Assembly (NCBI GenBank): GCA_013420905.1
Contig: JAAXNY010000001.1
Span: forward strand, 5,952,001-6,016,000
Length of the DNA: 64,000 nt
Direction: 5' to 3'
Origin: Collybia mongolica
Lineage: Eukaryota > Basidiomycota > Agaricomycetes > Agaricales > Clitocybaceae
A program made the position numbers and the translations under genes. The notes beneath the pieces are model-generated. The model saw only the letters and a program-made list of their open reading frames with translations, was not told where the DNA came from and did not search any database. Below, in pieces: positions 14,770 through 54,448 of this stretch (positions are counted from its first letter, which is position 1; the number at the start of each line of letters is the position of its first letter).

Positions 14770-17259
14770 GCAGCAAGGAACGTGCACCTCATCGCGCCCA
14801 CAGCCGCTTACAGTATGTCATTGACAACGGTTCGAAACTCTACATATACAGGCGAAAGTTGCGAAGTCTGTATTGTAGACATGAATAGTGGATGAAGTGA
14901 GGGTTTAAGTTCTATTTCTGCTTTATATATCTGATACTACATTGAACCAGGGGCGGCACCGTCCAAGAACCGACCTCAGATTGCAAATACAAGACTCCAA
15001 GCTCAACAACAACGTGAACACTCGCGCCTCTCCTCCGGAACCCTCCAGCAATCTCCTCACTCAACTTTAAACTCGGCGCCACGAGGGGCTGTGTTCCTCG
15101 CCGAGGAACACATCCTGCCGAACATCGAAACGTGGCTTTTACAATTGCTCTCACGCTGCAAGATTGTTAGATGCGGCCCCCAGAGATTGTAACACGAACA
15201 CCCCTACACGTATTTGTCTGCATCCTTGAATTCACAACGGAGGCATATAGCCCGTGTTTCTTCGCGCCCCAATCACCAACGGGTGATCCTCCACTTGAGC
15301 TGCGGCACCTTCTCCCGTCTCCAATTCGCCCCTCACATTTCAGCCCGCCTCCGCTCAAAGACATGTAATGATTCGCCTGCCAGAGACAGTATATCAAGTC
15401 TACCAATGTACGGGGGTTATAGTGTAAACGACGGAAGGGAGGAACTGACGATGAGTGGGTTCAAGTTGGAGTGTGCTCGGGCGTACCATGGAAGGATAAG
15501 CAGGACCAGGTCAAAAGGTGCTGTTCACAGGAGAGAAATGCAGACATCATCGTGCGAAGCGACAATTGCTATGACGTTGGATGATTCGAACCGAGAGGAG
15601 ACGCGGCGGCAAGGGAACGAAACGATGCGACGAAGGGAAGAACAGGGACTAGCTCGATTTAAAGGAAAGCCGGTGACATCGTACGTCGTGCGTTCATACC
15701 CGAGGACAATTCCCAAGCTACCCTTGTGACAGTTTGTGTCGACATCATCGCTCGCCCATTCTTCTCCTGAACATCATTGCCACTAAAAACAATTTTGCGA
15801 TGGCTCGCCCATCCAATCACGCCCGTCACCCTGAATCTCCACTCACATTCTCTCCACAACCACCCGACCCACAAGAGCGCCTGTTGTGCGCCCTCTGCGT
15901 ACAATAATCTGGGCCCCAAATCTGCCGTCACCACGTCGCGATTGAGGAAACTCTAGATCCTGGATACCACTTCCTATGCCGTCTGACACCCCCACCGCCT
16001 GCGTCCTTTCATTACTTTGTGCATGATCATAGCTTGCACGAACCCAATACGCTTTTTATCATTCTCGTTTTCAAATTAATAGTGCTCGTAAAGACTAGAA
16101 AGGGTGAAAGCAATTGATTGGGGCCCCCGCCGGAGGTGGAAGCTCGAGTGAGAAAGAAGGGAGTGTTTTCTATTGCGTGTGCGTATACGATAGAGTCGTA
16201 TCACAAAAATCTTCAGGCTATCCCAAGATCGATTGCAGGCATCACCCACGAAAGACGAAGGCAAAGCCCAAGGTCTTGGACAGATAGGCTATGACTCCGG
16301 TTCGCTTGAGGTCTGCAACGTTGATGGCCTACACCTCAGGGGCTAGCTGCAGCACTGATCGCTCGATGATAGGGCACACGTTGTCGTTGGATTCGGTCTA
16401 CATTCTCCCTTTGCCTCCTTGCTGGATGCACGGTACGGTAGGGAGAAGGAATGACGACATGACGTTAAAGAATCGAAGGAGACTAGACTAATGATGTCGT
16501 GCGTCATGTGATCGTTGAAACGAGTTTGCTCTCGACGATGACCCAGTGCAAAGCCAAGACCGACCTAGTCTTCTGGCTTGCCACTCGCTTTTTGTTGGTT
16601 GCCAACCAACGTCCTGGTTCTCGTGCAGATATGCCCATAAGGAATGATCCATGGAACTGGCGTCCCTCTAACGTTCTACGCGTTCCTTCACATCTTGACA
16701 CCATATCGCAGAACGAGTGGATCAATACTAGATCTCGCGTCTACAAATCCCGTCCTGACCAATCTGAACAGCATCTAATTGTCTGACATACCCTTCAAAG
16801 CCCCCAACTTTCGAGGGACTCGTTGCACAAACATCTAAACGTGTTATTCGCGTTCTCCTTACACATGTATGAAGCAGGTGTGAACAGACCCTGCGGCGAA
16901 GCAATCCAGGGTCCCAAGCACTTCTAGCGCCCGTCGTGATCGATCACTACCCTTCACACTTTACAATAGGGCGCCATACTTACTGTTCGTCAAAGCTCAT
17001 GTCTTAATCGCACTACCCACGACACACCTGGAGTTCACACGCATGTGGTGCTCCTCCGGCGTTTGTTTTCTCCATAAATGAATGGACTCAAGGACGTGGA
17101 ATGCTTGACTCATCTGTCATTAGCCCTTCACATCACTATATTCAACCACTGATAAAAGCCTATATCCACATCTCTACAAGGTAAGGAAGCCGAGCCCCTA
17201 AGACTCTGTTCACCTACCGCCAGCGTCTAACGCCATCTCCAGTATAACTCTCAAAGAAC
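14770..17259. other. intergenic, no supported gene; IRG1 upstream region at its end
   Basis: Several overlapping short ORFs on both strands have no domain or splice support. The last 350 bp contain a block (about 16938-16973) that resembles one upstream of the second IRG-like gene (about 18731-18772), and a TATA-like gataaaagcc at 17151. Confidence 0.4.
17151..17160 (+). promoter_or_regulatory. TATA-like element upstream of first IRG-like gene
   Basis: gataaaagcc lies about 100 nt before the ATG at 17260. The second paralogue has cataaataaaagc at 18846-18858, about 165 nt before its ATG. A similar element in both copies fits an inducible TATA promoter, but this is inference. Confidence 0.3.
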
Positions 17260-18342
17260 ATGGCTGCTGTCGGTGTCGCTACCTACGCCGCTGCTAAAGC
17301 CCTTGAATCAATTCTTGGTGGCGGCAATCGCAGGGCAATAAGGGAAGCTCGCGAAGAAGCTCGCAGGGCCAATGAGCAAGCTCTGGAATCGAAAAATCAA
17401 GCTACGGATGCTATGAATCAAGCCGCTGAGGCACTGCGTACTGCGGCAGCGGCAGATAGGGCACGGAAAGCTGCAGAAAGGGACGCAGCGGGGGCCAGAC
17501 AGAGAGCCGATGACGAGGCTGAGGCCAGGCGAGAAGCAGAGAGGGAGGCTGCCGAAGCCCGACGGGAGGCAGAGGCAGCAGAAGAAGAAAGGAAGAAGGC
17601 GGAGGAGCGCTGGCGGAAGGGCGTTCCTCCTGAGTTTGCACCAACGCGAGAGGAAGTCGACGCGATGCGCGAAAATTACGGATATATCCAGGGCCTCCGC
17701 CACTTTGCCGTCGTTGGTCGATCCGGGACAGGAAAGTCATCCTTGATCAACGCGCTCCGAGGGTTGGCCAATATCGACCCCGATGCAGCCCAGGTTGGAG
17801 TGAACGAGACCACCGCAGACGTCACCCGTTACCCTGATCCCAGAAATCCCAAGTGTGTCTGGTACGACGTTCCCGGCGCAGGGACACTCAACATCTCTGA
17901 CTGGCAGTACTTCAAGGACCAGGGGATCTACATGTTCGACGCCGTCATCGTCCTCTACGCAGACCGCTTCACGAGTACGGACATCGCGCTGCTCAAGACG
18001 TGCCGCAACTGCAGCATCCCCACATTCATCGTCCGCTCCAAGTCGGACCAGTACATCCGAAACATCAGGCGCGATAGCGGCTATGAGACCGACCCCGGGG
18101 ACTACCAGAGTCGATTTACCCCCGGCTTCGTCCGTGCTGAAGAGAAGGCGCGCGACAAGTTCATCAATGAGACCACTGCGGATGTGAAGAAAAACCTTGA
18201 GGCAGCTGGGCTGCGCCCGAAACGCGTGTATCTCATATCGAGATCAGTGATGATGAAGGTTGTGAAAGGGGAGAATACGGGCGCTGCGATCGATGAACAT
18301 GATCTTCACGGGGACGTTATTGACATTGTGGAGGGTGCGTAG
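17260..18342 (+). CDS. IRG-like (immunity-related GTPase type) protein, paralogue 1
   Basis: One uninterrupted frame of 360 residues. After a short hydrophobic start (MAAVGVATYAAAKAL) comes a long charged Ala/Glu/Arg coiled coil, residues about 25-130. Then a G domain: G1 GRSGTGKSS (about 153-161), switch region NETTADVTRYPDP, G3 DVPGAG (about 202-207) and the guanine-specificity motif RSKSD (about 259-263). The Walker-A type is GKS, as in effector IRGs. This fits the IRG (p47) GTPase fold, which in animals attacks intracellular parasite vacuoles. Fungal members are of unknown function, and membrane or filament assembly through the coiled coil is only a guess. It is followed 670 bp later by a near-identical paralogue in the same orientation, and a third lies at 33.7 kb; all three are exactly 360 codons. 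Confidence 0.85.
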   Translation: MAAVGVATYAAAKALESILGGGNRRAIREAREEARRANEQALESKNQATDAMNQAAEALRTAAAADRARKAAERDAAGARQRADDEAEARREAEREAAEARREAEAAEEERKKAEERWRKGVPPEFAPTREEVDAMRENYGYIQGLRHFAVVGRSGTGKSSLINALRGLANIDPDAAQVGVNETTADVTRYPDPRNPKCVWYDVPGAGTLNISDWQYFKDQGIYMFDAVIVLYADRFTSTDIALLKTCRNCSIPTFIVRSKSDQYIRNIRRDSGYETDPGDYQSRFTPGFVRAEEKARDKFINETTADVKKNLEAAGLRPKRVYLISRSVMMKVVKGENTGAAIDEHDLHGDVIDIVEGA

Positions 18343-19019
18343 ACGTTTCGAACGGAGGTTGTCGCTGTCACTGTTTTCCATCTTGTACAATAATCTGATG
18401 TGTCCTTCATCCGGGTTTCGCTTTTCCTGATATCTATGCAATCACAGATATTCTGGTCTGACGTCAAACTTGAAGCTAGAAAAAGATATTGGACACATCA
18501 CGCGTAATGTGTGGTTCGTGCCCGCTAATTGTTGAGACACTTCTCACCTCAGGGCAAACGCATGCTTGCAATTCGAAGCTCCCCTGTATATGGGCGGCTT
18601 GCTGCGCAACGATCTGGATTCTGAACTCAATAGTACTCGCGTCCTCCGTGCACATGGCTAAGGCCTGTAGAACTAGCTGTTAATGGGTCCTGGAGCAAGG
18701 GGATCTACTGCCACATCTGGTCCCTACCACAATCGATCGCTGCCTTTTTCACACTATATACTATACGATAGGAACGTCATCCTTTTGGACAAGGTTCATG
18801 TTTGACTTAACACAAAAGCGAGTTTTTCCAGAGTCCAGTACTTCGCATAAATAAAAGCGCCTCTGGGAAAGAGATGCTCGACTTTTTTGTCGCTGACTCT
18901 TTATATTCATTACAGTCCATCGTTACGCAACAAACTTCCCCATCCCTGCAAGTTGCTGTTCACTTTCTACAAATGGAGAGTTAGCTGATCTCATTCCTCC
19001 AGTACAACACTTGAGAAAC
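18343..19019. promoter_or_regulatory. spacer and promoter between tandem IRG-like genes
   Basis: Holds the 3' end of paralogue 1 and the upstream region of paralogue 2, including cataaataaaagc (18846-18858) and a pyrimidine-rich stretch before the ATG. A short ORF (18489-18683) has no domain and is not called. Confidence 0.35.
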
Positions 19020-20102
19020 ATGGACCCTACAGGTGTCACTACCTACTTCTTCGTTAGAGCCATCGACGAAGTCTTTGGTCCCCGTGACAGTGGGGCGATA
19101 GATGAGGCTCGGGAGGAGGCCCGCTGGGCCAATCAGCAAGCTCTTGAATCGAAAAGACAAGCTGCGGAAGCTATGAATAAAGCTGCTGAGGCATTGCGTA
19201 CCGCAGCGTTAGCAGAGGAGGCACGGCGGGCTGCAGAGAAGGAGGCAGCAGAGGCTAAGCGGAAAGCTGAGGAAGAGGCAGAAGCTAGGCAAGAAGCCGA
19301 GAGAGACGCAGCTGAAGCTCAACGGGAGGCCGAGGCCGCAGAAGAAGAAAGGAAAAAGGCAGAAGAACGCTGGAGAAAGGGCGTCCCTCCTGAGTTTGCA
19401 CCAACTCGAGAGGAAGTCGATGAGATACGGGCACTGTATGGCTATGTTCAGGGCCTTCGTCACTTTGCTATCGTTGGTCGATCCGGGACAGGAAAGTCAT
19501 CCTTGATCAACGCGCTCCGAGGGTTGGCCAATATCGACCCCGATGCAGCCCGGGTCGGGGTGAACGAGACCACTGCAGACGTCACCCGTTACCCAGACCC
19601 CAGAAATCCCAAGTGTGTCTGGTACGACGTTCCCGGCGCAGGGACTCTCAACATCCCTGACTGGCAGTATTTCAAGGACCAGGGGATCTATATGTTTGAC
19701 GCCGTCATCGTCCTTTACGCAGACCGCTTCACGAGCACAGACATCGCGTTGCTCAAGACGTGCCGCAACTGCAGCATCCCCACGTTCATCGTCCGTTCAA
19801 AGTCGGACCAGTACATCCGAAACATCAGGCGCGATAGCGGCTATGAGACCGACCCCGGGGACTACCAGAGTCGATTTACCCCCGGCTTCGTTCGTGCTGA
19901 GGAGAAGGCGCGTGACAAGTTCATCAACGAAACTACTGCGGATGTGAAGAAGAATCTCGAGACAGCTGGATTGCGCCCTAAACGCGTGTATCTCATATCG
20001 AGATCGGTGATGATGAAGGTTGTGAAAGAAGAGACTACGGGCGCTGAGATTGATGAACATGACCTCTACGGAGACATTATCGACATCGTGGAGGGTGCGT
20101 AG
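19020..20102 (+). CDS. IRG-like GTPase, paralogue 2
   Basis: 360 residues from the ATG at 19020; an in-frame TTG nine bases earlier is ignored. The G domain from about residue 140 to the end is almost identical in protein to paralogue 1, with scattered mostly third-base differences. G1 GRSGTGKSS, G3 DVPGAG and RSKSD are all kept. The N-terminal 130 residues have the same plan, a short non-polar start then a coiled coil rich in Ala, Glu, Arg and Lys. They differ much more in sequence (MDPTGVTTYFFVRAIDEVFG..). This pattern points to tandem duplication with either strong purifying selection or gene conversion on the G domain and freer change in the coiled coil. Biochemical role as for paralogue 1: GTP binding is very likely, the target is unknown. 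Confidence 0.85.
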   Translation: MDPTGVTTYFFVRAIDEVFGPRDSGAIDEAREEARWANQQALESKRQAAEAMNKAAEALRTAALAEEARRAAEKEAAEAKRKAEEEAEARQEAERDAAEAQREAEAAEEERKKAEERWRKGVPPEFAPTREEVDEIRALYGYVQGLRHFAIVGRSGTGKSSLINALRGLANIDPDAARVGVNETTADVTRYPDPRNPKCVWYDVPGAGTLNIPDWQYFKDQGIYMFDAVIVLYADRFTSTDIALLKTCRNCSIPTFIVRSKSDQYIRNIRRDSGYETDPGDYQSRFTPGFVRAEEKARDKFINETTADVKKNLETAGLRPKRVYLISRSVMMKVVKEETTGAEIDEHDLYGDIIDIVEGA

Positions 20103-21947: not shown

Positions 21948-24900
21948 TTAACCCTGTAAAAAGGAACTAATTTTATCCCCATCCCACTCCGCCTCCGGAT
22001 CGCCCTCCATGAGCTCCAGCTGGCTGCAATTGTACTGACAACGGTTTATTTGAGCGTCTTGCGATATTGTTTCATATTCAACTTCTGCTGCTTTGTAGTA
22101 CTTGATGGCTGAGAGCACTTTCCGCTCTCTGGCATGTAACTCCCCCAAAAGCTCTAATGCTTGGGCAATAGCAAGTGGGCCACCCAATTCTTGCGCTCTC
22201 TGAAGGGTACGTTCAAGGGTTTGCAACACTTCGCTGAAGGGGGCCTCAACATAGAGAAGGATGTAATCCTTCACAAGCAAGGAGTCCACGAGGCGACTTT
22301 CGGGTCCAAATTTCTCATAGATATCCAGGCATTGATCTACGGTCTCCAGAGCCTCTGGGTATCTACCCATTGCTGCCAATACCCTCGAGATCGAGTGAAG
22401 ACAATCGGCCTTATCCACTGGTCGTCTAATCTCCTCCTTGTCGAAGGCTTCTTTGGCGATGTTCAAGGCCTCCAACGCTTCTTCAGATGTCCATGGCGGA
22501 AAGTGAGAATAATACATTCCGTACATCAGTGCCTTACGGCCTCTTAAATACCCATTTGTACCCAGATCTTTCTCAGATACGCTGAGGAGGGCTTCTTCCG
22601 AGTCGCTGGGTTGGTCCAGATATATATAGAGGAAAGCAAGCTCGAAGGAGCATTCACTTGCACGCACATTATTGGAGAGCTTCCTGAAGTAATCCCGAGC
22701 TTCAATATAGCTTCCACGTGCATCTTGGTATCTGTCCAACCTGAAAAACGTGCTGCCCAGGCAAAAAAGAAATTCGGCAATGTATTTCTCAAGTTGAGCA
22801 TTACGGGCAATTCTGAGGCCATATTCAACCACCTCAGTGCGGGGTTTGTTCCAATGCTGGTACCAGCTGAAGGCGATAAGAGCTTCAAGTCCTTTTTCTA
22901 TATCAGGCACAGGGACTGTATCTCTCGTGGACTCCAAGAGAATGGATTGTATATTTGCCTCTTCGGTTGACAGTGCCGCAAGACCAGCCTTGAAGCTGAG
23001 ATCACCTGGTGATGATTTGTGTTTATGGACAAATTTATAAGCTGCATTGCGAACGTTGTCGCGTACTGCGAGAGGGATACGGTCGCACTGTTGCATGTAT
23101 GATTGAATCACGGGGAGAACAGATATCGATGCCTCCGAATCGTTTGTTGGTAGCTCAGTGTCAACAATGAGAGCAACACCATTGAGAGCTGAAATAGCAG
23201 CTCTCTTGTTGATTACCTGAGGTGCCCACAAATCTAGGTGGCTGTGAGTTGTCCCAGCAGGGAGCATGGAAAGAGTCGCAAGAAGGGTGCGCGCTGGGAT
23301 GTTTTTGACCATAGTCTTGCTATTCATCGACAGGGTAATACTGCGGGATATACTATCTTCCCCTTCCTCATCTGAAGAAAGCATTCCAGGGCCAATCTTA
23401 TGCCAATCCTTCAGCAGAGCACTGGGCATTGATTTCGATGTCTTTCCAAGTTGGGCCACAAGTGTAATTGCAAAAGGCATATGTCCTAAATCGACTAGCA
23501 ATTCATCAAGCTTTGGTTTCCCTTTGGCAGCAGGGTGGATAGTGCAGTAAATGTCATAGGAATTCTTTGCATCAACAGTGCCCAGAGGCCTATCGACCCA
23601 AGCAATCTGTTCAGACGGTGGTATATTTGTCCTCATTGTTACTAGGATGCTCAGTTGTGACAATGCTGCGAGCCGATTTAAGATATTTTCAACATCTTCT
23701 TTGCTTCCTTCGTTAGGATCCCAAGGGGTTTCGAAGTTGTCCAGTAACATCAATCGTAGAGAGGATGAGCTACGCAGCTCCGTGATAATATCCGCAAGAT
23801 AATCCCCGGTATCCAACGAAATACGAAGGTTGTGATATAAAATCTGGAGGAGAAGATCTGGGGAAGTTGCGCAGACGCACGGCACCCAAAATAAATCATC
23901 CCCATTGAATTTTTTAGAGATCTGGGGATCTTCCATCACAGCGAGAGCAATGGAGGTCTTGCCCATTCCTCCAGGTCCATGGATACAAATGCGAGGTGGT
24001 TTCAAGTCAGCAGTGGTATTGACAAGAATGTTAACAATATCCGTTACAAAGGCATCCCGGCCAAAAAAAATTGTGGGCTTTGTTGGCATCTGGCGCGACG
24101 AAGCATGATTTGCAGTGTGAGCCCGTCGGTTGAGGACACCCATTGATCCCTGTATGGTTATTAAGTCCTCCTGCATCTTGCTTATCCCTTGCTGTATCCC
24201 ATGAAGGATAACCCCCTGAGATATGTCTCTGGCCACCTAAAATGATTGTGAGCTAAACATGGAGACAATAGAAACATCTGGTATCGCACCTCCCAGTGAG
24301 TAAGCGAATTCTTCAAAAGTTCCATGCAGCGATCAACTTTGGCCTTATTTGTGGCTCTAAATAACGCTATCAAGAACCGGCTCTGCGTGGCGATTTCGTC
24401 AAGGTCTTGTTTGATCGCTTCTAGATCTCTGAATGTCATTAAACAGGTAAATGGATGAACGCCCTGACTTGTACTGGGAAATACACACGTGCCAAGTTTC
24501 CCAATATCCTTGATAAGGTCCTGAGGAATAGCTCCCATGTTTTTCCCAGTTACACCCGCAACCATGACCAACATGAGGCTTTCAATATGAGCTTTCAATT
24601 CCGAAACCTTCTCTTCTATCTCAGTAAGGTCCTGTTGAGGAGCACATCAGTATTTCGAGGGAAAGCAACTGAGAAGCTTTAGTATACTTGACATGTTTGT
24701 ATTAGCGCCAGCGCCAGCTCGAGCACTTCTTGAGCACCGGGAACACCACCAACAACGCCCACGGCTTGTTTTAGAATTTTGATTGCCTCAGAGGTTCCTT
24801 CGAGGACATAGGCTTGAGTGGTCGGAACTGCTGACACTTTCTTTGGACCTCCGGCGCGCTACTTGACATGGTAATCGAGGAAACGATGATAGGCATGAGG

Positions 24901-29110: not shown

Positions 29111-29167
29111 CGCCATAGTGTCCTCATTACCTATTATTGCATGTGTCGACTGGCGGCTGGTTGAATT

Positions 29168-29889
29168 CCCGCTACTTTAGTAGTGGGTTTTGGGATGGGC
29201 CTTCACTACGAGTGCGGACACATGTGACCTAATTTGGAACTCCGCCATATACCCCCTTAAACTTTATCTTCACCTGTTTCCCCCTTTCTCTTCACCCACG
29301 CAAATGAATTCATTAACAGCTTCAACCACTATGATTTTAGTTACAGCAGTTTTTCAAATGGAACAGTGCTTGCACGAAGATGTCATGAGTTAACAAAATG
29401 ACATAAACCCTTTTTTGGGACCCCCATAAACATGCATAACCTCACAGGAGTATATACTAATAGCAGGCAATTATCAATGAATATGGCTCCCTAACCAGAT
29501 ACCCAACACCGTCCGAAAAAGGCCACGACATTTGTGAAATCGTGACATCAAAGAATTTTCATGCAAGTGCCAATCTGTTCGAAACCTGCTGTAACAGGCA
29601 AGCTGTGCTGGCTTCTTTTGTGCCAGACCTGGCACAGAACCAGGTCATTGAGCATGACTATGTCTATCCCTGACAATAATTGTGTGAGATTGGGAAATTG
29701 CTTGCATCAGACACTGGCTAAACAATTCAAAATGATTGTTCAAGACCATTAATTTGAGAGATTGTTGACTGCGGTAGTGTTTTAGTGAAGCAAATACATA
29801 ACATAAACTTCTAAGGTGCCCCGAGAGCCATGCGATAATGGTGAAATCTGAAAAGTAGCGGGCTTTGCGGCGTCAGCGCGCTGATGGGG
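29168..29889. mobile_element. Helentron/Helitron2-like non-autonomous element A
   Basis: The left end is CCCGCTACTT (29168-29177). The inverse AAGTAGCGGG lies at 29853-29862, followed by a short GC hairpin (cgtcagc gc gctgatg) and gggg at 29889. The first 140 bp (29168-29307) are repeated at the start of element B, and the last 55 bp (29835-29889) at the end of B. Short asymmetric terminal inverted repeats plus a 3' hairpin are the signature of Helentrons. No Rep/helicase gene is present. The interior has no recognisable gene. Confidence 0.6.
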
Positions 29890-30064
29890 TTATTCCCGCT
29901 ACTTCAGTAGTGGGTTTTAGGATGGGCCTTCACTACGAGTGCGGACACATGTGACCTAATTTGGAACTCCGCCATATACCCCCCCTAAAATTTTATCTTC
30001 ACATGTTTCCCCCTTTCCCCTCGCCCATGCAAATGATGCGTATTTCCAAAAGTGATGCTTGACC

Positions 30065-30406
30065 TCAACAGGGACGCCATAATAGGAAAATCCTGTTGCT
30101 GCGCAAGGACATATTTGCTGATAATATGTGAAAAAAGTGCAGAATGGTGATTTTGAGTAAGTACCTGTTGACATTGTAAACAGCATTAATGTAGTGTAAC
30201 AAGTCTTCATCGTCTTGCGGAAGGTGAAGGATTGCCGGAGAATTACCAAAGAATTTGTCACGATTGTTATCTCTGATCTCGCGGAAAAAAAAAGAATGCA
30301 ATGATAGAACACTGCAATGGACTTGGTGTCGTGATAGTCTGCCTGCGATGATTAAATCACCTTCTGGGAAAAGGATGGGGGTTGGCAGCTTGTCAGACGC
30401 TGACAT
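30065..30406 (-). pseudogene. truncated BTB/POZ-domain protein gene
   Basis: The ATG at 30404-30406 starts MSASDKLPTPILFPEGDLII and continues with the BTB hallmark HxVHCSVLSLHSFFFREI (protein-binding dimer domain, about residues 15-45). The tail is LPQDDEDLLHYINAVYNV. A donor at 30164 and acceptor at 30099 join to a second exon that stops after about 12 codons, where a full BTB domain would need 30-50 more residues. The truncation lies close to the left end of mobile element B. The N-terminus and first exon are intact, so a short peptide could still be made. Such BTB proteins are highly multiplied in basidiomycetes. Confidence 0.6.
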
Positions 30407-30580
30407 GGCACAAAAAAAGGGTGAAAGTAAGATACTTCTATTGTATTGTGTCCTTAAATACGTGTGGTGAGACCATCTTATTCAGGGAGCTGACCCCCTA
30501 TAAAATGAGATGTTCCCCACAATCAGATACAAATCAAAATTAGTAGTATGTAAAGACTGCGCAACAGTATTGGGACCGTA

Positions 30581-31442
30581 TCAAGAATCATGCACGACAC
30601 TGCGAATGAGGGACCACATCGGCTCATCTAATCTGGCGTTGTAAGGTAACCATGGTCGGGAATTGACCTTTGGCGAAGGGATAGGAATGAAAAGGCCATG
30701 ATTATCACCTAATCGTCGAATTGTGCCGGAGCACGAACTAAAGACTTTGCACGTGTGCCCACGATACTCAGGCCATGCCGTGAGCCCCCACGCTAGGCTG
30801 AAACCAAGGCCAACATACTTGGAAAAGCACGCCTGGATTGATTTGCGGTTCAACGATGAACGGGCCAGAACAGATCGGTTTTTCAAACCACAGTGGGCGG
30901 CTGTGAGGCGTGGGTACGTAGAATAGACACCCCGGGCTGAAATGAAATTCATCACAAGCGTCGAATGGAACTGGTAAATCACGCGTAACGGATTCTCTAT
31001 AGTGGTTGCTATAACCTGAATGTGATGCCTGCCATTGAATAGGAGGTATATTGCTGAAATGCCTATAAAACTAGGGTAATCTGTGGCATCATCGCTCGTA
31101 GCCAAACCACGTGGCTAACAACCGGACTAGTCGTGACAAATGTGCCATGGGCACATATAAATCCATGTCTCCTGGAGTGAACAACCATGGTAAAACGACG
31201 AGAAGGGCGCATGACCCTGAAACGATGCTTTGTGTGGAATGGAGTGTATCCTGCATAAGGTCCGGATCAATGTCAAAAGCCCGAAACATGTTTTCAACGC
31301 GGAGTGGTACATGGTATTCTACAAGCTTCATGTAGAAGTGCAATGTCGAGCCCAACAGACGAAGGGTAGGAATGGAAACAAATTCTGAAAATATACGATT
31401 GAATTTGGGGGGGAAGCTCCCGGAAATAGTCGCTATTGTGAC
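30581..31442 (-). pseudogene. F-box/nucleotidyltransferase-like fungal protein, cargo of element B
   Basis: A first frame (to about 31087) reads LRLLGSTLHFYMKLVEYHVPLRV, then SGSCALLVVLPWLFTPGDMDLYV. The second (from about 31083) reads GRHHIQVIATTIENPLRVIYQFHSTLVMNFISARGVYSTYP and ends at 30581. These motifs (SGS..PGDxDLY, IQVI..NP) belong to a large basidiomycete family of proteins with an F-box-like front and a nucleotidyltransferase-like fold, function unknown. The two frames meet with a one-base shift and no fitting intron, and the N-terminus is missing. I therefore call it decayed, although a hidden splice site is possible. It lies wholly within the mobile element. Confidence 0.55.
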
Positions 31443-32060
31443 CTATGGGAAATTATATAAAATTTTTGTAATAATGCATGGTACGCACCGTGAACCCCAA
31501 AAAACGCGGTTACAGATTTGACCAGGATTAAACCGTTATTTTCTAACACCCTGAGGAAACCTCGGTTGGCTAAAACTAAGATGATACAGTAAATGAACCA
31601 GAACATGGTAAATAAGAAGACTCGGAGTCATAGTGCTTACTTTAAAGGAATTCCGCTAGATGAGTAACGTAACATCCGCAAATGCGCTATAAACACGGAC
31701 ACACATGACGGAAAAAAAAAAAGGAGGTGACTCATAGTGTCTCGCTGATGATTGGAAAAGCCGGATTTACTCTGAGATTAAAGGTTTCAAAGATTAAGGC
31801 GACGGAAGGACAACGGAATATATGACGCAAATAACGGTGAAATCTGAAAAGTAGCGGGCTTTGCGGCGTCAGCGCGCTGGTGGGGTAGAAAGTGGGGAGC
31901 CGATAAACTAAACTGTGATCACGTGAATAAGGCAGATATCTAGCATCGCAGCCAACGGCTCCCAATTGCGAGCAACTACAGGCAAAGGGTGAGTGGAAAT
32001 TACCTTACGTTATGTGCGATTTTTATGTGTGATTTGTGTAGTGTTCACACGCTTTGCATT

Positions 32061-32215: not shown

Positions 32216-33717
32216 TAAGTATAGGCCAATATCTTCTATCATGGCGGTAGTTTCGTAACAATGGCGTCGTGCCGTGAGACATAGGTGAAGAAATCAGTTC
32301 CAAGTCTATTTGAAGGTGGTGGCACCTACACGCGTTGTTTCGAACTTTCTTCAAGTTCGACGCGAGTCGCGATGCCATTGAACAGGTGAGTGGGTGCTTT
32401 CGTCTTGGGTACCCTTACACTAATAATTAATGGCAGGCTGCTGAAGTCTGGTCCCTGTCATGAAGCGTTCGATTGGAACGCGTTTTCGCGCTTCTTCTTG
32501 CCATATGGCTTAATCCCTACACAGCCTAGGTTTTTGGATGAAGGGATCCCCCCCGACCGGTCACTATCGGTCATCTGTCGTCACTTTCCGCAGCCAACTT
32601 GGGGCCAAGGATTCTGTTTTGCTTGTGCAATTATCGCGGTATCAGTTGGGCCCCGTTCGATACACATCTTCAGCGTCTACCCCCTTCACATTGGCAGACA
32701 TATACGCGGCATCATGTTTCTCTGACCACGGATCCTCGTCACTATACTTCCATCACTAGAAGGCACATCACTAGAGGGCGTTCCAAAATGAGGAAGACAT
32801 GTGGGTGGACCTTAGGCGGACATTTAAGTATCTCGGTGCATTCTGTCAACCGCAGAATTTAAGATAGGGAACACGGAAAACTCCCAGTTCTATCGAGTCA
32901 TTTTTTCTTATAGCATCCGATTGTTCCAAATGGCTGCTTTGCTAAAAATATTTCCAGTCACGCTGTTTGCTTGAAAACCTCAAAATAGTGCACCATCATA
33001 AACCCTCTAATCCTCGAGTGAGCAATTTCTTTCAGGTATACTATTAAAAAAATCCCCTGACTCTGGCTCTGAATCGGAGGATAAGGCTCGCGAAAACTCA
33101 ATGCGACCTGCGAAAAGTCTAGAGGCTTATGACCTTGGGGTCCCCGTTTTCGGGGCAACAACGATCTTGATAAGGTCGTGAAAGGGTGGAGTAGTCTGCG
33201 GTATATGAATGTGGCCTATACCTGGTGCATTGCCCAAGGGCCATAAACTGCGCCGTAGCAAACCACATCTTACAAGAGCGCTTTTTGTGAAGATACCCGT
33301 ATTCTGGAGTGGGAAAACATTGGCCTTTGTCCACGTTCTTAGAAGGCTCTCTTCAACGTGGTAGGTGTGTAGTTCCTCTACCCCAGAAAACCTGGGTCAT
33401 GTCACAGATCTATGTCTATTGATGTCCCCACTCCTTTGTTCTGGGGTGTCATCCTATCTATAACCCAAGGCAAGGAAACAACGTGTCCAGGTAGCATCAC
33501 GCACGAGGAATACCTGTCTTCACCGTCACGCTGACGCTCGCAACGCATTTAAGTAGCCCTTTGTTTTCCGGAAGGCGGTGGGCCCTCTGTTCTTCAGTCT
33601 CTCAACGCAGAATCACGTAGGTTCTATGGATATATTTTACTCTACTCTGCATCCCATGCTAACTTGAATTTTCAAGATCATCGACATCCACCGAGGAAAG
33701 TCTTGAAAGCTGACACG
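32216..33717. other. no supported gene; IRG3 upstream region
   Basis: A plus-strand frame at about 32390-32725 (..HEAFDWNAFSRFFLPYGL..) could be another gene fragment but has no recognised domain. The rest, up to the third IRG-like gene, shows no repeat or coding structure I can name. Confidence 0.35.
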
Positions 33718-34800
33718 ATGTTTGGCTTCCTCGCGGTTGCACTCATAGGAGGTATAGTGGAAGCTAACAAGCAAGATCGAGCTAAGCACAGGGCCCGGCA
33801 AGAGGCAGCGGAAGCCCGCCAGCGTGCGGCAGAGGCTGAAGCTCAGAGGATAATGGCAGCAGAAGCGGCAGCCGAGGCTGAAAGGGAAGCTAGGAAAGCC
33901 GCAGAAGCCCAGCAGCGAGCAGCAGAACAAGTTGAGCGAGAAAGAAGTCGGGCGAGAGCTGAAGCCGCGTGGCGAAGGCATGCCAATGAAGAAGCAGCGG
34001 CAGCTCAGAGAGCAAGGGAAGCAGCCGAGGAAGCGAGGAGGCAAGCAGACGAATCATGGCGAAGTGGAGTTCCGCCCGAGTTTGTGCCCACGCGAGCAGA
34101 AATTGATAGGATGCGCGCCGAGTACGGTTATGTTCAAGGGCTTCGTCACTTTGCGGTTGTAGGACTTTCCGGAACGGGAAAATCCTCCCTGATCAACGCA
34201 TTTCGTGGTCTTGCCAATCACGACCCCGGCGCAGCGGCCGCTGGCGTTAACGAGACCACTACTCACACCACCCGTTATCCCGACCCAAGCCATGCCCAAT
34301 GTGTCTGGTACGACATACCGGGGGCAGGTACTCTCACCGTATCCGACTGGCAGTACTTCAAGGACAGGGCGCTTTACATTTTTGACGCGCTCGTCGTAAT
34401 CTTCGGAGACCGTTTCACGATGACAGACATCGCAATGCTCAAGACGTGCAGGGCTTGCAATATCCCCACTCTCATCGTTCGGTCTAAATCTGATCAGTAC
34501 GCCCGAAACATCCGCCGTGACGCTGGGTATGAGACCGATCCCGACGACTATTCCAGCAGATTCAGTGCACCATTCCTTCGCGCTGAGGAGCAAGCACGAG
34601 CTCTCCTGGTTCAGAAGACGCGAGAGACTGTCAGGGACAACCTTGCGCAGGCAGACCTCCCCCAACAGAGGGTATATATTGTGTCAAAGACCACGATGCT
34701 ACAGCACGTCAAGAACGAGACAGCTGGTGCCTGCGTAGATGAGCTCGAGCTCCACAGGGATGTATTGGAGATTGCGAACGGCACATACAGAGCTCGATAG
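33718..34800 (+). CDS. IRG-like GTPase, paralogue 3
   Basis: 360 residues from the ATG at 33718; an upstream in-frame TTG is ignored. The plan is the same as the tandem pair. A short hydrophobic start (MFGFLAVALIGGIVEA) is followed by a coiled coil of about 110 residues rich in Ala, Glu and Arg, and then the G domain. G1 is LSGTGKSSLINAF, the switch is NETTTHTTRYPDP, G3 is DIPGAG and the specificity motif RSKSD. It is clearly more diverged from paralogues 1 and 2 than they are from each other, in both halves, yet the codon count is identical. It lies 13.6 kb away, beyond the transposon patchwork, in the same orientation. All nucleotide-binding motifs are intact, so GTP binding is likely; the role is inferred only from the animal IRG family. 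Confidence 0.83.
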   Translation: MFGFLAVALIGGIVEANKQDRAKHRARQEAAEARQRAAEAEAQRIMAAEAAAEAEREARKAAEAQQRAAEQVERERSRARAEAAWRRHANEEAAAAQRAREAAEEARRQADESWRSGVPPEFVPTRAEIDRMRAEYGYVQGLRHFAVVGLSGTGKSSLINAFRGLANHDPGAAAAGVNETTTHTTRYPDPSHAQCVWYDIPGAGTLTVSDWQYFKDRALYIFDALVVIFGDRFTMTDIAMLKTCRACNIPTLIVRSKSDQYARNIRRDAGYETDPDDYSSRFSAPFLRAEEQARALLVQKTRETVRDNLAQADLPQQRVYIVSKTTMLQHVKNETAGACVDELELHRDVLEIANGTYRAR

Positions 34801-52840: not shown

Positions 52841-54448
52841 CAGTGGCTCAAAAAACTGCCCCAATGTTTGTACATTTTTGAAAGATCAATATGGTATGAA
52901 GTGCTGACATAAGCAGGGGACCTGGGGTAATTATGTAAGATACTATGACATCGTGGCTTTCCAATGGACCCTGGATCATGTGATTTGGATCAAAACCCAT
53001 TAAGCTATAGGCCAAACAAAATGATTACTCATTGGGGCAGTTTTTTGACCCTCTATTAATTTTCTATCTAATACTTTGTATGACCACCTTTTGCCTTTAT
53101 AACTGCTTGTATCCGCCTGGGCATACTTTCTATCAGGTTTTGGCATACCTCTGGTGGAATTTCACCCCACTCTTCAGCCAATCTATCCCACAACTCATGT
53201 ACTCCTTTGGGTGGTGTCGGATATTCTTTAAGACGGCGCTTGAGATGTTCCCAAAGGTGTTCTATTGGATTCATGTCAGGGGATTGGGCAGGCCAGCCAA
53301 GGACTTGAATGTTGTTGTCTTCAAACCACTGTGTGGCCAGTCCAGATGTGTGTTTGGGGTCGTTATCTTGCTGAAAGTAGCGCTCGCCATCCACCATTTC
53401 CAACTTCTCAAAACTTTCCTGAACTCCACTCTCCAAAATTTCACAGTATTGAACCTTGTCCATGTTCCCCTCCACCTCTATGAGCTTTCCCACTCCATTC
53501 CACCCCATACAACCCCATACCATGAGGTTTCCTCCTCCTCCATGTTTGACAGTAGGTGATGTTGTTCTATCAGATGGTGGTTCTCCCCTTTGTTTCCAGA
53601 CATAAACCTTTCCATCTGACCCAATCCTATTGATTTTGGTCTCATCTGTCCATAGAACCCTTTTCCAGTCCTCCACAGTCCAGCTTTCATGATATTTTGC
53701 AAACTGGAGACGCCGGATGCGATGGGCTCGTTTGAGAAGAGGAGCTTTCCTCTTTGTAGCAGCATAAAATTGATTTTCCTTGAGTGCATTTCTGACTGTC
53801 TGGGGTGTGACAGGATTGGGGATGATGCCATTGATGAATTGGGTAGCCTGAACTGCATTATCAAGCTTCCCTGACTTGATTTGATGAATAATTGACTGTT
53901 TGTCACGAACAGACAGCTTGGAGGGGCGGCCACCAAGGTTGTTTTCTTTGTTTCCATCCACATCTTTGCTGATCCTACTGATGGTACCCTTCCCTAGACC
54001 AGTTTTCTCCTTGATTTGACGCTGAGAATAGCCCTCATTGAGGAGAGAAACAACAGTATTGTGCTGAGCAGTAGAAATGGCTTTCATGATGGTGGTAAGA
54101 GGTCAAGAAGATGATTGAACCAATTCCAACATGTCAAATTGATACAAATAAAGTCACATGACATTGTTTATTCTTCCCACAGTCCATAATGTTCTTGCAT
54201 TGGATCATAAATGCCAGAATAATGGAAAATAAGATAAGGGTCAAAAAACTGCCCCAATAAGTAACCATTTTGTTTGGCTTATAGCTTAATGGATATTGAT
54301 CCAAATCACATGATCCAGGGTCCATTGGAAAGCCACGATGTCATAGTATCTTACATAATTACCCCAGGTCCCCTGCTTATGTCAGCACTTCATACCATAT
54401 TGATCTTTCAAAAATGTACAAACATTGGGGCAGTTTTTTGAGCCACTG
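52841..54448. mobile_element. complete Tc1/mariner-family transposon, TA target duplication
   Basis: TA at 52839-52840 and 54449-54450 flank an element of 1608 bp. Terminal inverted repeats of about 211 bp (52841-53051 and 54238-54448) differ at only a few positions. Outer ends read cagtggctcaaaaaactgcc. The inner end of each repeat carries an inverted relative of the outer end (ggggcagttttttgaccc at 53034-53051), so each arm has binding-site-like sequences at both its ends. It encodes one intact transposase on the minus strand. It sits inside the CpG-poor repeat block. Confidence 0.9.
53068..54087 (-). CDS. Tc1/mariner transposase (DDE, intact)
   Basis: 339 residues without interruption from the ATG at 54085-54087. 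An N-terminal paired helix-turn-helix DNA-binding region (residues about 1-110: YSQRQIKEKTGLGKGTISRISK, later LSVRDKQSIIHQIKSG) is followed by the DDE catalytic domain. The first Asp is in RVLWTDETKIN, the second in RYFQQDNDPKHTS and the Glu in SPDMNPIEHLWEHLKRRL. Spacing of the last two is about 34 residues, the Tc1 (DD34E) class. The GRPSKLS linker and the WxxxK..PQSPDxNPIE-type block are typical. The enzyme cuts at the inverted repeats and inserts at TA. The intact frame and well-matched TIRs suggest recent activity, in clear contrast to the decay around it. Confidence 0.92.
   Translation of the reverse strand: MKAISTAQHNTVVSLLNEGYSQRQIKEKTGLGKGTISRISKDVDGNKENNLGGRPSKLSVRDKQSIIHQIKSGKLDNAVQATQFINGIIPNPVTPQTVRNALKENQFYAATKRKAPLLKRAHRIRRLQFAKYHESWTVEDWKRVLWTDETKINRIGSDGKVYVWKQRGEPPSDRTTSPTVKHGGGGNLMVWGCMGWNGVGKLIEVEGNMDKVQYCEILESGVQESFEKLEMVDGERYFQQDNDPKHTSGLATQWFEDNNIQVLGWPAQSPDMNPIEHLWEHLKRRLKEYPTPPKGVHELWDRLAEEWGEIPPEVCQNLIESMPRRIQAVIKAKGGHTKY

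Follow-up and report, generated by a model that had tools for sequence, protein, structure and literature searches.

Two elements with common ends and their family

The window, that is the whole stretch of 64,000 nucleotides of Collybia mongolica DNA that was analysed (C1:5952001-6016000, in a genome of 46 Mb in 26 contigs), contains two adjacent elements, A and B, the features of which are collected in Table 1. Comparison of the two elements showed a common left end of 92 nt at 98% identity, continued by a 61-nt repeat at 85%, and a common right end of 56 nt at 96% with two mismatches. This bore out an earlier note on the same DNA, which had described a 140-bp left end, a 55-bp right end with two mismatches and a mirrored repeat about 27 nt before the right end (CCCGCTACTT at 29168, mirrored by AAGTAGCGGG 27 nt before 29889), and the observation of two elements with common ends is confirmed. 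Three frames around A and B (17248-18342, 18897-20102 and 33553-34800, plus strand) match the interferon-inducible GTPase domain IIGP (PF05049; E 6.7e-27, 7e-26 and 8e-22, respectively) and form a small cluster of IRG-like GTPases. Elsewhere in the window, an NLR-like frame at 21948-24236 (minus strand) carries TPR repeats (TPR_12, E 1.8e-14) and a sub-threshold match to an nSTAND1 NTPase (E 7.9e-5, 22.9 bits, cut-off 27.1), and a frame at 53068-54102 (minus strand) is of the Tc1/mariner transposase type (DDE_3, E 6.1e-13, and HTH_Tnp_Tc3_2).

Table 1. Positions of elements A and B and of their features in the window
Feature	Position	Strand	Basis
Element A, 727 bp with edges TT...TTA (722 bp from CCC to GGGG)	29166..29892	+	Nine other 1-722 copies, junctions, insert-free sites
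Left-end hairpin of A (CCCGCTACTTTAGTAGTGGG)	29168..29187	+	Fold -5.5 kcal/mol, z -4.9
Left-end box CATGTGA of A, 54 nt from CCC	29221..29227	+	Exact box in 20/24 left ends
Foldback repeat within A, also standing alone elsewhere in the genome	29341..29594	.	Standalone matches on C5, C9, C10 and C13, and inverted-arm matches
Subterminal inverted repeat of A (AAGTAGCGGG)	29853..29862	+	Sequence
Small right-end stem of A, 5 bp	29868..29883	+	97.6% of cells paired, 17 right ends
Element B, without terminal TTA, GGGG joined to host TAGAAAG	29893..31885	+	Second copy on C17, sequence
Left-end hairpin of B	29895..29914	+	Hairpin sequence of A with one change
Left-end box CATGTGA of B	29948..29954	+	Sequence
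113-aa frame called BTB in the earlier note	30065..30406	-	No Pfam match at E<=0.1
Frame similar to part of the L021 F-box-like frame	30581..31105	-	No Pfam match in B
Frame similar to part of the L021 F-box-like frame	31089..31355	-	No Pfam match in B
Subterminal inverted repeat of B (AAGTAGCGGG)	31849..31858	+	Sequence
Small right-end stem of B, 5 bp	31864..31879	+	Same pairing analysis
Host target box CACGTGA, 35 nt after the end of B	31920..31926	+	Enriched family-wide

Matches to element A were found at 46 genomic locations (40 of the 47 candidates of a first look were scored), which excludes chance as the source of the common ends. Nine matches besides A spanned its positions 1-722 and two more ran from position 6 or 11 to 722, while one further full copy of B was found at C17:82364-84365 (95% over 2006 columns). 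The search of the genome for the right end, part of a check that had been proposed, gave a dispersed family with 28 right ends, 27 of them found with three mismatches or fewer (A and B included) and one, L031, missed by that search, its right end having a small deletion; a gapped-pattern search for right ends returned 19 places and zero new ones. A and B are members of this dispersed family, which is a new family of a known kind. CpG-type changes were uneven across 11 copies of A, from 2 to 19 per copy. The foldback repeat of A stands alone at four places (L051-L054, 76-82% identity) and was multiplied along with the copies of A.

Usable right flanks numbered 27, A having no independent one because B follows it. 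Five of these (L039 and L072-L075) came later and were kept apart from the first 22; four were obtained from the search with up to three mismatches, and L039 had been fetched earlier with its right end then unused. Among the 24 left flanks is that of B, to the left of which lies A; left ends that were truncated or shifted (L033, L035, L038-L040, L047-L050 and L072-L075) were excluded, as were the later L105-L108. The left flanks ended in ATT in 23 of 24 cases and in TTT in one, and the right flanks began with TTAT (24/27), TTAC (2/27) or, in the case of B, TAGA (1/27).

The joined flanks of 15 sites were searched against the genome for insert-free paralogs. The insertion L026 sits in a repeat, 11 matches of which span the junction, and the nine that were fetched read ACTA-ATCAG or near variants, with AT at the junction in seven and AC in two, when the filled site reads ACTAATT[CCC...GGGG]TTATCAG. 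The single diverged insert-free paralog of L031 agrees (CA^CTGAG), while those of L023 and L034 differ by extra bases and the edges were not settled from them. The nine paralogs fit insertion at A^T without duplication, and a 2-bp AT duplication fits them equally; on the simplest reading of these sequences, an element TTCCC...GGGGTTA would insert at A^T without target duplication. The TT target of Helentrons was absent from the nine insert-free sites (AAT 7/9, AAC 2/9). With the edges TTCCC...GGGGTTA, zero bases separate A from B. The limits given previously (29168-29889 and 29895-31885) were correct within 2-3 bases and are shifted by the insert-free sites, and the five bases that had been placed between the elements are not a spacer, since TTATT is the TTA of A and the TT of B. 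At the same TTACTAA in another copy of the repeat hit by L026 (L062, C1:2831300-2832400), there is an unrelated element, ending in GGGGAGGGG/CCCCTCCCC, which appears to have TTACTAA on both sides.

Analysis of the ends showed that the first 20 nt of the left end fold into a hairpin of -5.5 kcal/mol as DNA (z -4.9), with zero shuffles as good. The small GC hairpin claimed for the right end fared unevenly: its 5-bp stem was paired in 97.6% of cells over 17 right ends, when slid controls gave at most 78.8%, and its covariation score was reached by 8 of 500 shuffles, but its folding energy was not better than that of shuffles (z -0.67), and the one pair changed on both sides was matched by 337 of 500 shuffles. 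The ends are inverted and asymmetric, with CCCGCTACTT at the left end and AAGTAGCGGG well inside the right one, and the palindromic subterminal repeat and 3' palindrome that mark Helentrons and HINEs were found (left hairpin z -4.9, right stem 97.6%). The ends of canonical Helitrons (5' TC and 3' CTRR, without inverted repeats) were not, the ends here being TTCCC and GGGGTTA with inverted repeats.

Rep-bearing relatives and gene content

One relative, L021, is a 6614-bp member on the minus strand of C8 (C8:1492920-1499533) that has the left end of B at 95% and its right end at 90% and contains the interior of B as two blocks, at 93% and 91%. Two stretches of L021, of about 3.8 kb and 0.85 kb, are missing from B. 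Within the first of them lie fragments of a gene that matches DUF6570 (E 2.7e-22) and, at 26.5 bits and thus below the cut-off of 28.9, Helitron_like_N (E 8.7e-6); a further stretch matched Helitron_like_N over the cut-off, at 29.5 bits, in the profile search of the genome. Frames of L021 read GHGTLHCHM, an HUH motif, and YYILDY, which we take to be a Y2-like motif. In a diverged relative on C11 (L061), an AATT flank is followed by the same left hairpin, and the Rep is broken and colinear with the Rep region of L021, at 71% over 441 columns at best, with motif 2 reading GHRTLHCH instead of the GHGTLHCH of L021. The serine of the Helentron form of this motif (RGSPHxH) was found in neither L021 nor L061, and helicase and endonuclease parts were seen in neither of these two loci, whose Rep genes are broken or incomplete. 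Rep is thus linked to the same left end at two loci (L021 and L061) and to the same right end at one (L021).

Since L021 combines the same ends with the interior of B and a broken DUF6570 and Helitron_like_N gene, A and B are non-autonomous rolling-circle elements of the Helitron2/Helentron-like kind. Of the autonomous Rep-helicase relatives anticipated by the earlier note, only broken Rep pieces, in L021 and L061, were recovered; searches of the genome with Helitron_like_N (40 matches) and with the Rep piece of L061 (13 matches, namely itself, L021 at 64% and eleven at 31-40%) found no intact partner with these ends. Two candidates were rejected. A sister DUF6570 family (L018/L019), in which the protein of L019 with L055 has 2490 aa with DUF6570, Helitron_like_N and a PIF1 helicase, was followed over 13 kb, which took in a right end unlike the present one but did not reach the left end; the canonical Helitrons of the same genome form a family with other ends (CTTG^T).

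The gene content that had been assigned to B is weakly supported. The three reading frames of B that were tested gave no Pfam match at E<=0.1, BTB was matched neither in B nor in the one frame of a relative that was tested, and F-box was matched below threshold and only in L021 (E 0.0075; 16.6 bits, cut-off 20.5), so that the BTB and F-box labels for B are weak. When the F-box-like frame of L021 was used as a protein query, 82 candidates were obtained, none of them at E<=0.001. Outside the window, DNA of the B interior turned up in three places only, namely the copy on C17, L021 (as two blocks) and L023 (112 bp near the right end). Capture of a host gene by B was considered and set aside, the whole-genome DNA search having identified no donor gene.

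The CAYGTGA box in targets and left ends

The word CAYGTGA, first noticed by reading flanks side by side in the same 22 right flanks in which it was then counted, was present within 150 nt in 12 of these 22, when 0.4 were expected, and in one of 24 left flanks; its reverse complement, TCACRTG, was present in 3 of the 22. A null drawn from 20,929 AT-anchored positions gave the box in 1.46% of flanks (tail 5e-17 for 12/22), and at offsets 34-48 it was present in 8 of 22 flanks against a null of 0.17% (tail 2e-17). CACGTGA-like sites also came out of a Gibbs search to which no motif had been given, and the best 6-mer of the right flanks, CACGTG, was present in 10 of 22, when the best 6-mer of 500 null sets averaged 5.2 and reached 8 at most. 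Among the five later right flanks, two had the box (L072 and L039; tail 0.002) and the three without it have diverged ends. Taken together, the exact box was present in 14 of the 27 right flanks and absent within 150 nt from 13, and sequence was shared only between the flanks of L049 and L073. The targets of the family are A^T upstream of an oriented CAYGTGA box in about half of cases. The commonest 6-mer of the left flanks, CATGTG (6/24), lies within the null range and tells against a purely one-sided signal.

Insert-free paralogs of the L031 and L034 sites (labelled L068 and L067) carry the same box-like word (AACGTGACC and TCACATGAC), inexact and left out of the counts; since it is present without the insert, the word preceded insertion at these two sites. 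In the canonical Helitron family (Rep motif RGLPHMHM, 94 right ends), CAYGTGA was present in none of the 20 flanks fetched, a weak control since these flanks amount to nine site groups with about 0.3 boxes expected by chance. Copies of that family (CTTG^T; L085-L104) lie repeatedly beside the same few repeats.

The distances from the host T to the box were 31, 33, 33, 34, 35, 36, 40, 44, 45, 52, 57, 65, 66 and 93. The spacing is therefore not fixed, 9 of 14 boxes being located within 31-45 and 5 of 14 beyond 45 (52 to 93). At the L021 target, a perfect 7-bp hairpin of 19 nt between the cut and the box would reduce the distance from 52 to 33, a correction that is only suggestive, an equally long stem having been found in 91 of 5000 shuffles. 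A fixed or hairpin-corrected spacing was tried and rejected: L021 fits it, the 5-bp stems of L032, L039 and L048 give no single value, and L040 has no stem.

The same box is present in the left end of the element itself. An exact CAYGTGA was found within the first 70 nt of 20 of the 24 left ends; its distance from CCC is 54 in 17 of these and 52, 53 or 58 in the other three. This places the box about 56 nt from the A^T cut with the 20-nt hairpin in between, and at 36, within the main range of the targets, when the hairpin is not counted; the donor and target distances are equal only under that count. The diverged left end of L061 reads CACATGACC at the position of the box, and four other diverged left ends (L105-L108) have no exact box, L107 reading TTGTGACTT and L108 TCATGACTT. 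In L022, L027, L028 and L031, the box-bearing stretch is doubled, a second CATGTGA following 15 nt after the first.

Target choice, rival explanations and known systems

We consider it rather probable that these rolling-circle elements were once moved by a DUF6570-type HUH Rep, with one recognition of box and AT serving both the donor left end and the target. The Rep complex would bind the box and nick AT some 31-45 nt upstream of it, and would make the same nick twice, at the donor left end, where the hairpin lies between the cut and the box, and at the target; a good target would be DNA resembling the element's own origin. We infer a single recognition event for the two nicks, binding of the box by Rep being predicted. 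The side, strand and spacing of the box speak for a direct role in the reaction without proving one. The further proposal, that Rep picks its targets by origin mimicry (an AT nick site with an oriented CAYGTGA downstream) and that old insertions are reusable, stands at about even chances. Insertion would leave AT before the same downstream box, so that the right junction would still be a target, which would explain why A and B abut with a box 35 nt beyond B.

The main alternative invokes a host protein. CACGTGA is what we take to be a typical E-box word, and a bHLH-type protein bound to it could tether the complex or open the DNA, with Rep needing only AT and the left-end box being a promoter element of the former Rep gene. 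The resemblance to an E-box, the loose spacing and the presence of the box at only about half of the targets are in its favour, but the box lies on one side and mostly in one orientation (12/22 right flanks, 1/24 left flanks, 3/22 reversed), with 8 of 22 within a 15-nt interval, and we give this explanation perhaps one chance in a few. It is improbable that the box merely marks promoters or open chromatin favoured for insertion and has no role in the reaction, since a preference for promoters alone would not give one side, one orientation and a narrow interval; the lack of the box in the 20 flanks of the canonical family points the same way, weakly, with nine site groups and about 0.3 expected.

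Two other rivals concern the pair and the class rather than the box. The A-B pair could be the product of one read-through or joined-end event instead of a second insertion: GGGGTTA/TTCCC is a perfect joined end, and tandem Helitrons are described in the consulted parts of PMC5148889. The interiors of A and B are unrelated, which means that they are not repeats of one template, and B has no TTA, and this origin of the pair is unlikely. A cut-and-paste element that makes a 2-bp AT duplication around TCCC...GGGGTT would fit the insert-free sites as well as a duplication-free A^T does, but the asymmetric ends and the HUH Rep gene linked at L021 and L061 make it a very improbable account.

Rolling-circle elements with box and AT recognition, the reading we prefer, can be placed among known systems on the basis of the consulted parts of the reports cited here. 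FoHeli1 and FoHeli2 of Fusarium are Helitron2-like elements with asymmetric ends, TNAT^A targets and tandem copies (PMC5148889). The present family resembles them in its left-end hairpin, in an asymmetric inverted repeat tens of nt before the right end, in the absence, on the simplest reading, of target duplication, in its non-autonomous and tandem copies and in its fungal host, and differs in its terminal sequences and its target, TNAT^A in theirs and A^T with a downstream box here (PMC5148889); in its consulted parts, that report mentions no target box for FoHeli1 or FoHeli2. Helentrons and their non-autonomous HINEs have TT targets and an endonuclease, and share with the present family palindromic subterminal inverted repeats, a small 3' palindrome, flanking Ts and, in the case of HINEs, derivation by deletion from Rep-bearing elements (PMC4067079). 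The family differs from Helentrons in its A^T target and in motif 2, which has S in Helentrons and L in Helitrons and reads GTLHCH, neither of these forms, here (PMC4067079); an endonuclease was not seen in the incomplete Rep genes of L021 and L061. The rolling-circle Helentron/Helitron2 reading of the earlier note held as regards the asymmetric inverted ends, the Rep-bearing relatives and, on the simplest reading, the lack of duplication, while its Helentron part did not agree with the target (A^T instead of TT) or the motif. Canonical Helitrons such as Helraiser and the HELPO elements of Pleurotus (PMC4289320) have an HUH Rep gene, a right-end hairpin and insertion at A^T without duplication, all shared by the present family, the last on the simplest reading, but their ends are 5' TC and 3' CTRR without inverted repeats (PMC4778049, PMC5876387, PMC4289320). 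AT targets are described for Helitrons (PMC4778049, PMC5876387, PMC13286980), and Helraiser favours AT-rich DNA up to about 20 bp from the site, most strongly on its 3' side, in place of the box seen here (PMC4778049, PMC5876387, PMC13286980).

For the way in which the target may be chosen, the nearest working analogy in the reports consulted would be AAV, the HUH Rep of which appears to target Rep-binding sites on its own genome and at AAVS1 (PMC2900306); no membership is meant, AAV being a virus with unrelated ends and outcome (PMC2900306). IS608 is a more distant analogy, an HUH transposase with a defined target word (PMC5934647), which, unlike the present case, reads a target tetranucleotide by base pairing (PMC5934647) and works without a helicase (PMC5876387).

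A literature search, judged by titles and the openings of abstracts, found no report of a Helitron target box. The Helitron targets described in the consulted parts of the literature are A^T, TT and TNAT, with at most AT-rich surroundings, and the CAYGTGA box is new against these. The family adds an asymmetric-end group with an A^T target. Our results suggest that a two-part target repeating the left end is new and worth testing, as a concrete, testable rule linking cleavage of the left end to that of the target, and one that predicts tandem growth at old insertions.
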